Translations under genes and position numbers: made by a program
Part shown: piece after piece, positions 8,552-58,626 of the stretch
Position numbering within the stretch: position 1 is the first letter of the stretch
How the letters are laid out: each line of letters opens with the position of its first letter
Assembly: GCF_000993805.1 (NCBI RefSeq)
Contig: NZ_CP009961.1
Span: 862,714-926,713, forward strand
DNA length: 64,000 nt
Source of the DNA: Thermofilum uzonense
GTDB lineage: Archaea; Thermoproteota; Thermoprotei; Thermofilales; Thermofilaceae
Direction of reading: 5' to 3'
The notes under the pieces: model-generated
What the model saw: only the letters and a program-made list of their open reading frames with translations
Database searches by the model: none
Told to the model about the DNA's origin: nothing

Positions 8552-10173
8552 GAACTCGCACCTCTCTTCTTAGTGAAATCTTCTAGAGACAATACCTTGA
8601 CCGTCCCGTCCGATTGGTTATAGACTTGCACGCGATCCATGCAGCTGAAACAGGGGTCGATACTGGTCACTATAAGTGGGAGATCTGAGAGAGCGGCTCC
8701 TTCAAGGAGGATGGCGGCAAGTTGTATGTTTGGGAGAGTCGGTGTCCTAATTTTGACACGATAGGGGCTATGAGTATTATTTGATATCACGTAATAAAAA
8801 AGCTCGCCTCTTGGGGCCTCTGTCCGTGCATAGGATTCCCCTGCAGGAACAGTACCCATGAAATACTTGGAGGGTACAGGGTTTCCGCTTGGAGTTTTTT
8901 CTGTTATTTGCGAAATAATGCGTGCTGATTCAATAAGTTCTTTAAGACGACATAATACCAGACTATAGACATCGCCTCTATCTGAGGTTATAGTCTCAAA
9001 TTCCAGGTCTCCATAGGCTCCATATGGTTCTATTTTTCGAATATCGTAGGGGTCGCCCGCGGCTCGCCTAACGGGACCAACGGTCACATATTTGCGCGCC
9101 TGGTCTAGTGTGTATACGCCAATGTTTCGTGTTCTCTCTACGAAGAGATCGCTAGACATAGCGGTTTCGATAACATTTTCTATTTGCTTTGAAAACTCGC
9201 CGACTTTAAGGGACATCTTCTTCAGTTTTGCGTCATCTATGTCTTTACGAACCCCTCCTATGGTTACAAACGACTTGTGTACTCTGTTACCGGTAGCCTC
9301 TTCTAGCAAATCTAGAATAGTCTCACGTAGGCTCCACACCCACATAAACATGGTCTCAAACCCCATCCAGTAGCCTACAAGCCCAAGCCACAACGAGTGT
9401 GAGTGTATCCTTTCCAACTCGGCTATCAGTGTTCGAAGATAGAGAGCCCGCTTAGGTATATCTATGCTGAGTAGTTTTTCGACCGCCTCTACAAAGGTCC
9501 ATGCATGATGTGTGCTGCAAATCCCACAAACCCTTTCTAAAAGGAATATGTCGCGGAGATACGTTCTTCCCTCAGCTGCTTTCTCTACCCCCCTGTGTAC
9601 GAAGCCTATCCTCAGGTAAGCTTTCCGTATAGTCTCACCCTCTACAATTAAGCTGAAACGCTCCGGCTCCTTTAACGCAGGGTGATATGGACCCAGCGGG
9701 AGAACCACGTTCTCAGGGGATAAAGGTGCCAAGGGTGTAAATTGTACTGGGCCGCAACTTTGTGTTTTCGCGATTTTTTCTTTGATTGATTCACTTTTCA
9801 CCTCCTTAAGGAGAGGGGGTGGAGCGTCCTGTGGGTAACAGTCTGGTAGTATGAATCGTTGCTGGCTGGTATTATGCAACCCTTCTACTTTAAGGCCGAA
9901 GAGTTCTTCAGACTCTCTCTCATAATATGCTGCTCCAGGGACTATTGATGTGAGAGTTGGAACAACGGGTGCTTGTTTTGATACTTCTACTGATAAATGA
10001 ACGATTGACCCATTAAGGCTTGAGAAATGATATATCACCTCTATTTTATCTCCTCTATCGACGGCTGTAATAGCTACTAGGTGGGTGAAGCCGGAGCTTG
10101 TTAGTTTTTCCACCTCCTTTAGTAAATCGTCTAGGCTAACCCTATTCTTACTCTGGACTCGTGTTCCCCCCAT
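8545..10173 (-). CDS. Group 4 [NiFe] hydrogenase large subunit, NuoC-NuoD fusion
   Basis: Catalytic subunit for H2 production or oxidation, 542 residues. Residues 1 to about 125 are NuoC-like (YYERESEELFGLKVEG), and the rest is NuoD/HycE-like. Two nickel-binding cysteine pairs are present: RVCGICSTHHAW (Cys 216 and 219) and DPCFSCMDR (Cys 508 and 511). These define a [NiFe] active site and exclude a plain complex I NuoD. A 28-residue tail follows Arg514, as in HycE, where a maturation protease cleaves after the equivalent Arg. It overlaps the small-subunit gene by 26 bases. No hyp maturation genes lie in the window. Confidence 0.95.
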   Translation of the reverse strand: MGGTRVQSKNRVSLDDLLKEVEKLTSSGFTHLVAITAVDRGDKIEVIYHFSSLNGSIVHLSVEVSKQAPVVPTLTSIVPGAAYYERESEELFGLKVEGLHNTSQQRFILPDCYPQDAPPPLLKEVKSESIKEKIAKTQSCGPVQFTPLAPLSPENVVLPLGPYHPALKEPERFSLIVEGETIRKAYLRIGFVHRGVEKAAEGRTYLRDIFLLERVCGICSTHHAWTFVEAVEKLLSIDIPKRALYLRTLIAELERIHSHSLWLGLVGYWMGFETMFMWVWSLRETILDLLEEATGNRVHKSFVTIGGVRKDIDDAKLKKMSLKVGEFSKQIENVIETAMSSDLFVERTRNIGVYTLDQARKYVTVGPVRRAAGDPYDIRKIEPYGAYGDLEFETITSDRGDVYSLVLCRLKELIESARIISQITEKTPSGNPVPSKYFMGTVPAGESYARTEAPRGELFYYVISNNTHSPYRVKIRTPTLPNIQLAAILLEGAALSDLPLIVTSIDPCFSCMDRVQVYNQSDGTVKVLSLEDFTKKRGASSW

Positions 10174-49100: not shown

Positions 49101-49883
49101 CTATAAATCGATCTTTATCGACTTGTTTTTCAACTTCTCGGCTAGTTTCGTTAGAATCTCTTGGTGTACCTCATGGATCGTCCTAGAAGCATCAATAACG
49201 ATGAAGAGTGAATTATATTCCCGAGCCAATTCTAGATATCTTTCCCTGACCTTCTGCATGAAGCTTGGATCCTCAAACCTCGTTGTTTCTCCTCTGGCTT
49301 CCAAGCGTTTGACAGCAAGCTCGAGAGGAAGGTCTAGAAGTACAACTATGTCAGGCAGCCTTATAGAGCGGTTGATTGCCATTATGAAGTCTGCGGGTAG
49401 ACCACGAACAACCTGATAGGCGAGGCTTGCGAAGACTGACCTATCAGAAACCACAATTTTTCCTGATTCAAGAGCCGGGAGTACAACTTCCTTTTGAAGT
49501 ATTATTCTGTCGGCTGCAAAAAGATAAGCCTCGGCATCAGGGTCAAGGTCATGCTTGTAAAGGAAGTCCTTTATGGCTTTGACCCAAGGTTCTCTTACGA
49601 GGACCACTTCGAAATTTCTGTTTGAGAGGTACTCGTAGAGCATTACAGCCTGTGTAGTCTTACCGCTCCCGTCTATCCCTTCGAAGACTATGTATACTCC
49701 TCCCGGCGTAACTTTACGCTTTGGGAGATCCAGGGTTTTTCTCTCAGACATTATAAAGCCGTGTTTGGGACAATAATACTCAATTACAATCTCACCGGTA
49801 AGCGTAAGGTTACGAACAACCTTAGGTGTTACGTAGTCCTGGCATTGAGGGCAGAAGACTTTTTTCCTGGAGTATCCGGACAT
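49101..49883 (-). CDS. tmk: Thymidylate kinase with N-terminal zinc ribbon
   Basis: Phosphorylates dTMP to dTDP. Residues from about 60 on are a complete thymidylate kinase: P-loop VFEGIDGSGKTTQAVML, VVLVREPW, the DR motif VVSDRSVFASLAYQ, LLDLPLELAVKRLEARG. The first 55 residues are unusual: CPQC at 11-14 and CPKH at about 38-41 form a zinc-ribbon-like knuckle (three Cys plus one His). Normal archaeal kinases lack it and are about 200 residues; this one has 260. It starts at ATG 49883. The extension may bind nucleic acid or a partner; that is inference. Confidence 0.9.
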   Translation of the reverse strand: MSGYSRKKVFCPQCQDYVTPKVVRNLTLTGEIVIEYYCPKHGFIMSERKTLDLPKRKVTPGGVYIVFEGIDGSGKTTQAVMLYEYLSNRNFEVVLVREPWVKAIKDFLYKHDLDPDAEAYLFAADRIILQKEVVLPALESGKIVVSDRSVFASLAYQVVRGLPADFIMAINRSIRLPDIVVLLDLPLELAVKRLEARGETTRFEDPSFMQKVRERYLELAREYNSLFIVIDASRTIHEVHQEILTKLAEKLKNKSIKIDL

Positions 49884-49964: not shown

Positions 49965-49974
49965 TTTTTATACT
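49965..49974 (+). promoter_or_regulatory. TATA box of the recombination-type operon
   Basis: The run tttttatact at 49966-49975 is centred about 25 bases upstream of GTG 49994. It indicates a leaderless mRNA starting at the first gene of the winged-helix / RecA-like / RadA-paralogue / nuclease operon. No palindrome resembling the radA promoter's is seen here. Confidence 0.5.
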
Positions 49975-49993
49975 CGATTAGAACGATCATATT

Positions 49994-50371
49994 GTGGATG
50001 AATTCGAGAGGATAATTTTTTGGGTTTGGAGGATAGGGGATAGCGAAAAGACACTTGTCGAATTGTCGAGAAATGCGGCTACTGCAAAGGAGGCACTCGA
50101 GCTCTTAAAAAAATACTCGCTGGTAGTCGTACGTAAAAAGGGTCGAATATACCTTGTCTCCCTATCAGAAAAAGGTCTGAACGTCTATAGAAAGCTTGGG
50201 GAGCTTAGGGAATTCCTGGGAATACCTGTGCCATCTGAGAGGCGAGAACAGCCAGCTATAACTGAGAGTCAAGGAGCTTTAACTGGCCTGGAGAGTGTTC
50301 CCACTTTCGTGGCAGATAACCCATGGCTGAAGGTTCTAGCCCAGAGGGGGAGAGAGAGGGTTGGTTTATGA
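49994..50371 (+). CDS. Winged-helix protein, first gene of RadA-paralogue operon
   Basis: A 125-residue protein with an N-terminal winged helix of about 70 residues: the segments KTLVELSRNAATAKEALELL and YSLVVVRKKGRIYLVSLSEKG look like the helices and wing. The C-terminal 50 residues are polar and probably disordered, ending in a helix. GTG 49994 is preceded by a TATA element. Its stop overlaps the next start by four bases (ATGA). It may regulate the operon or bind DNA as part of a complex; no family name can be given. Confidence 0.7.
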   Translation: MDEFERIIFWVWRIGDSEKTLVELSRNAATAKEALELLKKYSLVVVRKKGRIYLVSLSEKGLNVYRKLGELREFLGIPVPSERREQPAITESQGALTGLESVPTFVADNPWLKVLAQRGRERVGL

Positions 50372-50922
50372 ATGGTCTTATAGTTGTTGGTAGGGAGGAG
50401 TTTTCGCGGGTTCACCTGAAGGTTTTCAGGGAGGAGGAGGTGCGTGCTATTTTTGGAGAGATGTCTGAGGAGCTTTTAAAGCTTAGCAGGGATACGCTTG
50501 TATTGTTTCAACCTCTCTCAGTATCTGTAGAGTTCTGTGGTAGAAAAGTGAGCCTACCATTTGGCGTCAGCCTAGCGAGTGGCGTCGAGCTCGAGATTCC
50601 AGGCTGCATATATGTCCCTGCCCTCCTTGACGGAGAATTTCTAGAATTCCTGCTGTTCGACCTGCCTCGGAAGCTAGATGAGAACAGGAAGCCTGTAGTG
50701 GTCGAGGACGTTGATCAGCGCTTCACCAGGGACGTTCGTGAAGGGATACTCTATGCACTTGATATTCTGGACCGCATCTCATCAACTTATAGGATCCCGG
50801 TCGTTGTGTATGGGACTACCTCTCTAGCTAGTTCCTGGCGTTTTACGAGGAGGCTTTACTGTGACAAGAGTGGGACATGCTTCCTTGACGGCGAGCTGTT
50901 CTGTGGTGAGGAGGGTGCATAG
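50368..50922 (+). CDS. RecA-fold-like protein lacking a Walker A motif
   Basis: A 184-residue protein I do not recognise by family. Its C-terminal half parallels the neighbouring RadA paralogue: PVVVEDVDQRFTR matches a Walker B strand (LIIVDSVIALYRA), LYALDILDRISSTYRIPVVV matches the following helix and strand, and WRFTRRL...CFLDGELF matches HRFLLKKTGDAFLLEVLD. No Walker A phosphate loop is visible. It therefore may be an ATP-inactive RecA-fold partner, like Rad55-type paralogues that bind a recombinase. ATG 50368 lies in a four-base overlap with the preceding stop; the overlap downstream is about 20 bases. Confidence 0.6.
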   Translation: MNGLIVVGREEFSRVHLKVFREEEVRAIFGEMSEELLKLSRDTLVLFQPLSVSVEFCGRKVSLPFGVSLASGVELEIPGCIYVPALLDGEFLEFLLFDLPRKLDENRKPVVVEDVDQRFTRDVREGILYALDILDRISSTYRIPVVVYGTTSLASSWRFTRRLYCDKSGTCFLDGELFCGEEGA

Positions 50923-51862
50923 TATAGACGAGCTCGCAAAAGAGGAGAATATAGGCAGAGTCACTATTTCGAGGCTTAAAGCTGCTGGTATCGAGAACCT
51001 CGAAGATCTTGTCCTCTATAATCCTGAGGAGCTGGAGGAATTGACGGGGATAGACTTCGAGAGAGCCTTAAGAGTTATACGGACCGCCAGAAGGATAGTG
51101 GGCTGGGAGGCACGGGCTATCCCTGGGAAGGAATATGCTTCATTGCTGAAGAAGAGAGAGGCCCTCACTACCGGTGTTAGCTCCATCGATGCACTGACTG
51201 GTGGCGGGTTAGCAGTATATGACATTCACGAATTTGCCGGAGAGTTTGGCTCGGGCAAGACACAGCTCTGCCATCAGCTCGCGGTTACTGTTCAGCTGCC
51301 ACCTTCGAGAGGTGGTCTAGGAGGAGGCGTGGTATACATCGACACGGAGGGGACTTTTAGCCCTGAAAGAATTGAGTCTATCTCTGCCAGGTTTGGTGTA
51401 GAGGATCCCTTGGCTAATATTTACGTGTTTAGACCTTTGAGCGTAGACGAGTTGGAAGAGTTTGTTGTGAGGGAGCTTTCCCGGCTTGTAAAAGGTGGAT
51501 CTAGGCTCATCATAGTGGACTCTGTTATAGCGCTGTATAGAGCTCAGTTCAGGGGTAGGGAGTGGCTGGCCATGAGGCAACAGAGGATAAATTATATGCT
51601 GGACTGGGTTAAGAGGCTGTCTAGACTCTACAGTCTCGTCGCGGTTATCACGAATCAGGTCGTGAGTGTGCCTAGCGCTTGGGGCGTCGCTGTAAAGCTC
51701 CCGGCCGGAGGCAACATTATAGCCCATGCAAGTACGCACCGCTTCCTTTTGAAGAAAACGGGCGATGCATTCCTCCTCGAGGTCTTGGACAGCCCGCGCG
51801 TTGCCCGTGGCGCGAGTGTAGAGTTTAGAATCGAGGAGGACGGGCTCCACGATGCCAGGTAG
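50903..51862 (+). CDS. RadA paralogue (RecA-superfamily recombinase-like ATPase)
   Basis: Second RadA-like protein of the window, about 319 residues. It keeps the N-terminal helix-hairpin-helix domain (GRVTISRLKAAGIENLEDLV), which archaeal RadB lacks, plus Walker [29 protein letters not shown], Walker B LIIVDSVIALY and the loop 2 region VKLPAGGNIIAHASTHRF. The RadA polymerisation motif FxxA, FITA in the canonical protein, is replaced by GKEYASLL here, so self-assembly may be impaired. The start is uncertain among GTG codons at 50861, 50903 and 50915. Its end overlaps the nuclease gene by 11 bases. Confidence 0.88.
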   Translation: MVRRVHSIDELAKEENIGRVTISRLKAAGIENLEDLVLYNPEELEELTGIDFERALRVIRTARRIVGWEARAIPGKEYASLLKKREALTTGVSSIDALTGGGLAVYDIHEFAGEFGSGKTQLCHQLAVTVQLPPSRGGLGGGVVYIDTEGTFSPERIESISARFGVEDPLANIYVFRPLSVDELEEFVVRELSRLVKGGSRLIIVDSVIALYRAQFRGREWLAMRQQRINYMLDWVKRLSRLYSLVAVITNQVVSVPSAWGVAVKLPAGGNIIAHASTHRFLLKKTGDAFLLEVLDSPRVARGASVEFRIEEDGLHDAR

Positions 51863-52373
51863 CTTTTTAGGAGCTCAGCTGAGATCCTGTCTTGAGCGTT
51901 TTGAACACGCAATGTCTTCACGGAAGGAGGCCTTCACTGTTACGGAGGTGGCTAAACCTTTTGGGAGAGGGAGGGGTAGAGGGCTTCAAGCAGGTGTTAT
52001 TCTTCATAGGAAGTTCTGGGGTGACTTGAGCCTTATATTGCAGGAGGACAAGGCTTCGACACCCTTCCCAGTGGCTTGGAGGTTCCGGTTTGGCTGGCTT
52101 CTCGGTGTGGTTGACCAGGTTCTATTTGTAGACGGCTTGCCTGTAGAGGTTGCCGAGCTGAAGAGTTATGACGGCTTCAAGAGCTATGAGAAAGTACAAG
52201 CTTCACTCTACGGCCTCCTAGTTATGCTTAACTTTCAATACCGTCCAAGAGTCTCGATCATAGGCATGAACGAGAAGCTGGAGATAAACAACTGGGAGGA
52301 TTTGGCAGTGAATGCATTGGAGAGTTTTGTTAGGAGTAATGTTTTGCTTAAAAACGTTTCTAGGAAAACATAA
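51852..52373 (+). CDS. PD-(D/E)XK nuclease, RecB/Cas4-like without Fe-S cysteines
   Basis: A 173-residue nuclease-like protein. The RecB-family motifs occur in order: GVILHRKFW (motif I His), LLGVVDQVLF (Asp), VEVAELKSYDG (ExK) and VQASLYGLLVM (QxxxY). This arrangement matches Cas4/Dna2/RecB nucleases, but only one cysteine exists, so no Fe-S cluster is expected. No CRISPR array or other cas gene is near. ATG 51852 overlaps the RadA paralogue, indicating joint action in DNA end processing or recombination. Confidence 0.75.
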   Translation: MPGSFLGAQLRSCLERFEHAMSSRKEAFTVTEVAKPFGRGRGRGLQAGVILHRKFWGDLSLILQEDKASTPFPVAWRFRFGWLLGVVDQVLFVDGLPVEVAELKSYDGFKSYEKVQASLYGLLVMLNFQYRPRVSIIGMNEKLEINNWEDLAVNALESFVRSNVLLKNVSRKT

Positions 52374-57558: not shown

Positions 57559-58626
57559 TTAGATGTCTGTCACTCCATCCTCTGAGATCGCAAAGGCTGC
57601 TTCTTTCTCGGCGTGTTTTGGACTGTCTATTATCCTCGCGATCCTTTTGCCCTCCTTGGCTTTTCTAAACCATATCCGGTATGTGAAGCCGTGAGCCATT
57701 ATGTTTCCACCCGCGGGCTTTAATGGGTTTCCAAAGAATATGTCTGGGGCAGCCATTACCTGGTTTGTCACGACGACGGCCAGATTGTATAGGCTTGCTA
57801 GCTTGTGGAGCTGGCTGATATGCCTGTTTAGTTTTTGTTGACGGGAGGCAAGGTTCTCCCTGCCAGGGTACTCGGATCTGAAATGGTTTATCAGGCTATC
57901 TACTATGATCAGCCTGATGTTGTTCTTCTCGATATACTTCTTGGCCTCATCCACTAGGAGCATTTGGTGATCGCTGTTATACGCTCTGGCATAGATTATG
58001 TTCTCCAAGACCTTCTCAGGGTCGGCCCCTTTCGCCCTGGCTATTTGAACAACCCTCTCAGGCCTAAAGGTTCCCTCAGTGTCTATGTAGAGTGCTCTAG
58101 CCCCGAGCCCTCCCTTCTCCTTTGGCAGCTGAACCATCACACTGAGCTGGTGGCAGAGCTGGGTCTTACCGGCGCCGAACTCACCTATGAATTCTGTTAG
58201 ACTCCCAACCTCTATTCCTCCCTCAAGCAAGTCGTCTAGAGCCTTGACGCCGGTACTAATGTATTCGACATTTTTCCTTTTCTCGAAGAGCTCCTTAGCT
58301 GTAATGAACTCCTCGCCACGGCTTACCAGCCTTTGAGCAGCCCTGATAATAGCCATTGCTCGATCCTCGGAGCCTAGGATTAACGCGAGCTCGTGCGCAG
58401 AGGCGAAAGCAAGATCCTTCACTGAGTAGTACCCAGCTGCTCGAAGTTTTTGAGCAGTAATACGACCAACCCCTTCGAGATCTTCAAGCCTAATCTCTCC
58501 TTCCTCAATTTCCTCGGCGGCCCCACCTGTAAACTCTTCCTCTCCGAGAATTACTCGTTCGAGCTCCTCGTCTAGACTCTCGTTTTCACTTGCCTCTGCC
58601 TCCTTCTCCTTTAGTTTCTTCGGCAT
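57559..58626 (-). CDS. radA: DNA repair and recombination protein RadA
   Basis: Archaeal RecA/Rad51 homologue that forms filaments on single-stranded DNA and drives strand exchange. The 355-residue protein has an acidic N-terminal extension of about 45 residues, an HhH domain ([20 protein letters not shown]), the polymerisation motif [10 protein letters not shown], Walker [27 protein letters not shown], Walker [12 protein letters not shown] and loop 2 [17 protein letters not shown]. All key residues are intact. It starts at ATG 58626; the promoter contains a 24-base palindrome. It is the standard RadA, compared with the paralogue at 50903. Confidence 0.96.

Follow-up and report, generated by a model that had tools for sequence, protein, structure and literature searches.

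A conserved four-gene operon of Thermofilum uzonense encodes a RadA paralogue, a predicted RAD51-fold protein and a Cas4/RecB-superfamily nuclease

The Shu complex, composed of Csm2-Psy3-Shu1-Shu2 in yeast and SWSAP1-SWS1 in human, is one of the described systems with which the operon presented here invites comparison. Among DNA-end nucleases, Cas4 is defined by a four-cysteine Fe-S cluster. The mediators of crenarchaeal RadA are, to our knowledge, poorly known, and RadB is without an N-terminal domain. Of the archaeal RadA paralogues, two families, RadB and RadC, have been described as biochemically characterised (PMC5928155). The Shu complex is defined by the binding of a SWIM protein to RAD51 paralogues (PMC6316741).

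The window analysed here is a stretch of 64,000 nucleotides from the T. uzonense genome, which is a single contig of 1,611,988 bases. At 49994-52373 it contains four overlapping genes on the forward strand, coding in order for a winged-helix-like protein, a protein here called X, a RadA paralogue here called RadP, and a nuclease (Table 1). The original prediction had proposed four genes with overlapping ends, and the open reading frames bear this out. The winged-helix and X genes overlap by 4 nt (ATGA) and the RadP and nuclease genes by 11 nt, and both overlaps are also seen in three relatives (L028-L030). The overlap of X and RadP is 17 nt, counted from the GTG at 50906 that comparison with L029 and L030 identifies as the RadP start; the longest reading frame begins instead at 50861. 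A single TATA box had been claimed, and TTTATACT confirms it: TTTATA[CA]T occurs at about the same spacing 5' of the orthologue in each of the six relatives examined, from the same genus and the sister genus (L028-L030, L032, L033, L035). This element is probably a leaderless promoter for the operon. Divergent from the operon, at 49101-49883 on the reverse strand, is a gene for a thymidylate-kinase-like protein whose N terminus is extended by a Cys-rich (zinc-ribbon-like) segment; this neighbour is retained in several relatives.

Table 1. Features of the operon, of its surroundings and of related loci (window coordinates unless another locus is named)
Feature	Position	Strand	Basis or remark
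TATA element TTTATACT	49967..49974	+	single; 27 nt 5' of first start codon
Winged-helix-like DNA-binding protein, 125 aa	49994..50371	+	ORF; 11-member family alignment
C-terminal (NPW) tail motif VPTFVADNPWLKVLAQRGRE	50297..50356	+	alignment; P..NPW..V invariant or nearly so
Protein X, 184 aa	50368..50922	+	13-homologue alignment, AlphaFold2 model, Foldseek, hhalign
RadP, 318 aa	50906..51862	+	start from alignment with L029 and L030; Pfam Rad51; tree
HhH domain of RadP	50945..51091	+	PF14520 E 2e-6, above cut-off
Walker A (GEFGSGKT) of RadP	51239..51262	+	motif in 16/16 RadP
Predicted nuclease, RecB/Cas4/MGME1-like PD-(D/E)XK, 173 aa	51852..52373	+	alignment, model, fold search
Gene-conversion tract 1	51710..51863	+	154 bp, 2 mismatches; flanks 56% and 43%
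Gene-conversion tract 2	52066..52300	+	235 bp, 0 mismatches; flanks 43% and 40%
Element-side tracts	L010 about 9449-9602 and 9802-10036
Further NPW-tail loci	L010 10264-10635; L224 4051-4677; L225 6723-7409; L228-L231
Canonical radA	57559..58626	-	5.2 kb from operon; FxxA motif (FITA) present

In the six other genomes of the genus, and in the sister genus (L035), the genes again stand in the order winged helix-X-RadP-nuclease (L031 is cut off by a contig end within X), so that the four families are neighbours genus-wide and beyond. The operon is not a chance arrangement, because this synteny recurs in many other genomes. In L042, from family f5, winged helix, X and RadP lie together with the nuclease gene just upstream, and across the order the nuclease is no more than a few genes from RadP at 16 of the 18 places. 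However, it is a non-obligatory part of the operon, since in four genomes from two further genera, g2 and g7 (L088-L091), winged helix-X-RadP has no nuclease adjoining. The four genes had been proposed to form one functional module; their conservation as neighbours supports this, but the nuclease is an optional member, and on the elements described below it accompanies RadP where X is absent, so that joint action of all four is not a requirement. Canonical radA was correctly said to be separate, although it lies somewhat nearer than the 6 kb first given, and its linkage to the operon is kept throughout the genus at a spacing of about 2-6 kb.

RadP matches Pfam Rad51 (E 3e-60) and HHH_5 (E 2e-6), and in a 63-row unrooted tree the RadP sequences form one group apart from canonical RadA (support 90/82). 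Both results agree with the original description of a RadA paralogue with an HhH domain, distinct from canonical RadA, which coexists with RadP in T. uzonense and in nearly all genomes examined. Like canonical RadA and RAD51, RadP has an HhH domain and a RecA core, with Walker A and conserved L1 and GGN regions. It differs from them in its separate branch and in the filament-linking Phe of FxxA, which is gone in all 16 RadP sequences and kept in the three canonical RadA sequences aligned. It also falls below the cut-off of TIGR02236, the canonical RadA equivalog (248.6 against 361.15 bits). With NF003301 it scores 268.8 bits against a cut-off of 259, so annotation pipelines may well call it RadA. 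RadB and RadC (aRadC) are likewise RecA-core paralogues that coexist with canonical RadA. However, RadP has the N-terminal HhH domain and does not reach the cut-off of the RadB equivalog TIGR02237 (108.3 against 172.4 bits), and the aRadC-like gene of the genome is a separate one (L011; 38% identity), whose row, the sole such sequence in the unrooted tree, lies far off on a very long branch. That gene, at L011 3518-4787 on the reverse strand, overlaps a second, short RecA-like gene whose P-loop looks degenerate. A weak match of RadP to Mads8 covers only part of the ATPase core, and neither Pfam nor PADLOC nor PHROGs gave a named system.

Protein X has no match in Pfam or NCBIfam, and Walker A is absent from all 13 members of the family. 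The AlphaFold2 model of X has a mean pLDDT of 92, and in a Foldseek search of the PDB its top matches are RadA, RAD51 and DMC1, with probabilities of 0.97-1.00, a best E value of only about 1.5e-3, and TM scores by query of 0.53-0.62, which are moderate, for most full-length RAD51/DMC1 matches. Alignment of X with RadP by hhalign (probability 76, E 2e-5) covers the Walker B strand and the next helix and strand, and an invariant Glu of X (E113) stands at the position of the Walker B Asp of RadP. X is thus strongly predicted, as probable rather than certain, to be a subunit of RAD51 fold that no longer binds nucleotide, and the Walker A-less RecA-like protein originally proposed is most likely RAD51-like. 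X occupies the place that an AAA gene takes in the elements, behind an NPW-tailed protein; the alternative that X is a diverged AAA ATPase was rejected because Foldseek places RadA, RAD51 and DMC1 first and hhalign aligns X on the Walker B region of RadP. Among the 397 genomes sampled from the phylum and the 27 from the order, each confident match to X adjoins RadP (13 of 13 places).

In the nuclease alignment H52, D88, E102-x-K104 and Q116-xxx-Y120 are invariant across 17 members, and the RecB-type catalytic residues of the predicted nuclease are therefore intact. Its model (pLDDT 87) finds as best folds Cas4 SSO0001, EXO5, AddAB, ACE1 and MGME1. The window nuclease therefore shares with the Cas4, RecB, MGME1 and EXO5 proteins the H, D, ExK and QxxxY motifs and the predicted fold. 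It differs from Cas4 in that the cysteine cluster is absent from all 17 members, whereas some Cas4-like homologues, among them L095 and L099, have a Cys-rich segment at the C terminus, and in lying away from cas genes. On its motifs and model it is accordingly a nuclease of the Cas4/RecB superfamily but not Cas4 proper, so that the original assignment as a Cas4-like PD-(D/E)XK nuclease stands for motifs and fold but not for the cysteines. A role in CRISPR, already judged unlikely, is unsupported: the score with the TIGR00372 cas4 model is 13.8 bits against a cut-off of 65, and there is no cas-like gene among the neighbouring reading frames of the window.

The 125-residue protein probably has a winged-helix fold; a more cautious wording is needed here because its best Pfam match, the DUF6293_C winged helix, is sub-threshold (E 0.05). 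The sequence at its C terminus (P-x-F-x-x-x-N-P-W-L-x-V-L) is a tail common to several different proteins in each genome, including winged-helix, C2H2 and HTH proteins and a protein adjoining an SMC-like ATPase. The tail profile has matches in each of the 27 genomes of the order, and several of these matches are at the ends of other proteins. The tail looks like a docking peptide for a partner common to several proteins. A docking peptide specific to RadP was considered and rejected, because the tail is found order-wide, including in lone HTH proteins and beside the SMC-like ATPase.

Elsewhere in the phylum, RadP-like genes lie directly beside a SWIM-domain gene, on one side or the other, in 12 other genomes from other families (L039, L041, L092-L094, L139-L144, L154), and conserved genes without an assigned function often precede the pair. 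Most of these SWIM proteins have the CxC..CxHxxA motif, with the final Ala replaced by Ser in L139 and L142. In L092-L094, L139-L144 and L154, which represent several families of the phylum, the operon consists of genes for a membrane protein, a protein of about 300-450 residues, one of about 110 residues, the RadA paralogue and the SWIM protein; none of the first three could be assigned to a family with confidence. In the unrooted tree the SWIM-linked genes from other classes form two groups, one nearer RadP and one nearer RadA, and consequently the tree does not support a single origin for them. The likeness to the Shu complex is therefore twofold: there are subunits of RAD51-paralogue type, RadP by sequence and X, which has no Walker A, by predicted fold; and RadP-like genes of the phylum adjoin genes for SWIM proteins with the characteristic motif. 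However, the likeness does not establish orthology. The window operon has no SWIM gene and has instead a nuclease and a winged-helix protein. The T. uzonense genome has two SWIM genes elsewhere (L138 and L010), and most genomes of the Thermofilum family retain one away from the operon. The chromosomal SWIM gene at L138 3891-6416 is directly behind a homologue of family B DNA polymerase (PF00136 E 8e-33).

We propose, at roughly an even chance, that the operon is the archaeal counterpart of a RAD51-paralogue mediator complex, in which RadP and X act on RadA. The proposal is made because X adjoins RadP wherever it is found; because the genes overlap and have a common promoter; because X is RAD51-like but has no Walker A, while RadP keeps Walker A, drops the FxxA Phe and coexists with canonical RadA; because the nuclease keeps RecB-type motifs and folds like DNA-end nucleases; because RadP-like genes adjoin SWIM genes elsewhere in the phylum; and because the operon stays linked to radA within the genus. 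We infer the formation of a complex, its activity on RadA and the order of events, which would be as follows. The nuclease would trim or resect single-stranded ends. RadP, which binds ATP and has HhH but not the FxxA Phe, would pair with X in the manner of eukaryotic RAD51-paralogue heterodimers, and the pair would bind the exposed DNA and then load, cap or restrain a filament of canonical RadA, the presumed client. The winged-helix protein would tie the complex to DNA, its NPW tail reaching a partner common to other proteins. Several points stand against this proposal. Most core motifs of RadP, including L1, resemble those of a working recombinase, and RadP alone might pair strands; the fold matches of X combine weak E values with moderate TM scores; the nuclease is optional; and a SWIM gene is missing from the operon.

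The same genome has a second RadP-nuclease pair, at 1,380,635-1,382,072 (L010), with protein identities of 60% and 73% respectively and the same 11-nt overlap. X is absent, and the neighbours include ParA, ParB, VirB11-type, HerA-domain, SWIM and C2H2-AAA genes, on account of which the locus is probably an integrated element. L034 and L037 resemble it in having RadP-nuclease without X, and ParB, VirB11, HerA or C2H2-AAA genes occur across these three loci, whose gene content suggests that they are mobile elements. RadP-nuclease pairs in L036 and L038 have neighbours that include ordinary metabolic genes. Just 3' of the element nuclease gene (L010 10080-10240) are degenerate repeats resembling GCGTAATACGTCGCATTGCG. 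The element helicase (L010 2602-4252) is 99% identical to a copy at 1.20 Mb (G000:C1:1197421-1200224) that adjoins a ParA-like gene and a gene for an HTH protein with the NPW tail; this copy is probably part of a sister element.

These pairs provide the strongest rival to a mediator role, namely that RadP and the nuclease are a recombinase-exonuclease pair domesticated from mobile elements, to which winged helix and X were added as regulators. The nuclease would make single strands and RadP would pair them, as in phage Red beta/Exo and RecT/RecE, which likewise combine on mobile elements a nuclease gene in tandem with a gene of a strand-pairing family. The tandems without X, the shared overlap, the nearness of the two genes through most of the order, and the Walker A and L1 regions of RadP all fit this picture. 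But RadP is of the RadA family and not an annealase, the FxxA Phe is lost in all copies, the chromosomal locus adds a Walker-less partner and a winged helix, and the g2 and g7 genomes keep X-RadP with no nuclease neighbour. In addition, searches found no nuclease match in phage and plasmid records and, by the patterns tried, no relatives of nuclease or RadP in viral contigs. We consider this explanation rather unlikely. A viral origin is unsupported: haloviral RadA-like matches are only remotely related, and no RecB-like nuclease is annotated next to them.

The element RadP-nuclease pair of L010 is directly 3' of the HerA-domain ATPase gene (PF01935 E 8e-10). This would fit a module for DNA uptake or element transfer, in which RadP and the nuclease process DNA delivered by the HerA/VirB4-like translocases that integrated elements encode, the chromosomal operon doing likewise for imported chromosomal DNA. 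However, no translocase gene adjoins the chromosomal operon, and families F217 and F381, encoded upstream of RadP-SWIM and considered as split or degenerate HerA/CedB-like translocases, failed in profile comparison with the L010 HerA protein. Such a module is very improbable.

The chromosomal and element copies are 99-100% identical within two sharply bounded tracts, whereas their remaining DNA is 56%, 43% and 40% identical. Inside the tracts both copies resemble the chromosomal orthologues (for RadP, 39/48 with L029 and 31/47 with the element relative L038), but outside them the closest sequence to the element RadP is L038 (192/265); therefore chromosomal sequence overwrote that of the element. 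The element has undergone recent gene conversion in patches, with the chromosome as donor. Recombination in Sulfolobus similarly yields short discontinuous tracts (PMC4471258). No gene conversion was seen in a related genome, G023, which also has elements.

Conversion at this locus bears on a further reading, that the operon restrains recombination: RadP and X would inhibit RadA, the nuclease would remove intermediates or incoming ends, and elements would carry copies to protect or exchange themselves. RadB and RadC are reported to inhibit RadA reactions in vitro (PMC5928155), and element and chromosomal copies coexist. On the other hand, the architecture of RadP, with its HhH domain, is nearer to RadA than to RadB or RadC, and recombination at the operon is evidently not blocked. 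We regard this reading as improbable.

The mediator reading can be taken one step further. It is possible, and we suggest it only tentatively, that RadP is a third archaeal family of RadA paralogue besides RadB and RadC, forming Shu-like mediator complexes with a SWIM protein in several lineages and with Walker-less X and an end nuclease in Thermofilum and its relatives. In agreement with the original expectation of no described system of this composition, the operon matches no named family or system in Pfam, NCBIfam, PADLOC, PHROGs or the literature, in a search confined to this phylum and to open-access papers; within these libraries and papers, it is a conserved four-gene operon not previously described.

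The operon offers a thermostable, compact and tractable system in which to study the control of a RAD51-type filament by paralogue heterodimers, and the two recent conversion tracts document naturally occurring recombination of the chromosome with a mobile element at this locus despite strong divergence of their DNA. Because RadP-like and SWIM genes are repeatedly neighbours, the question of where the eukaryotic Shu complex arose can be put to a direct test. If RadP does form such a third family, the logic of RAD51 paralogue and SWIM protein would predate or parallel the eukaryotes, and its core would have been traded with mobile elements.
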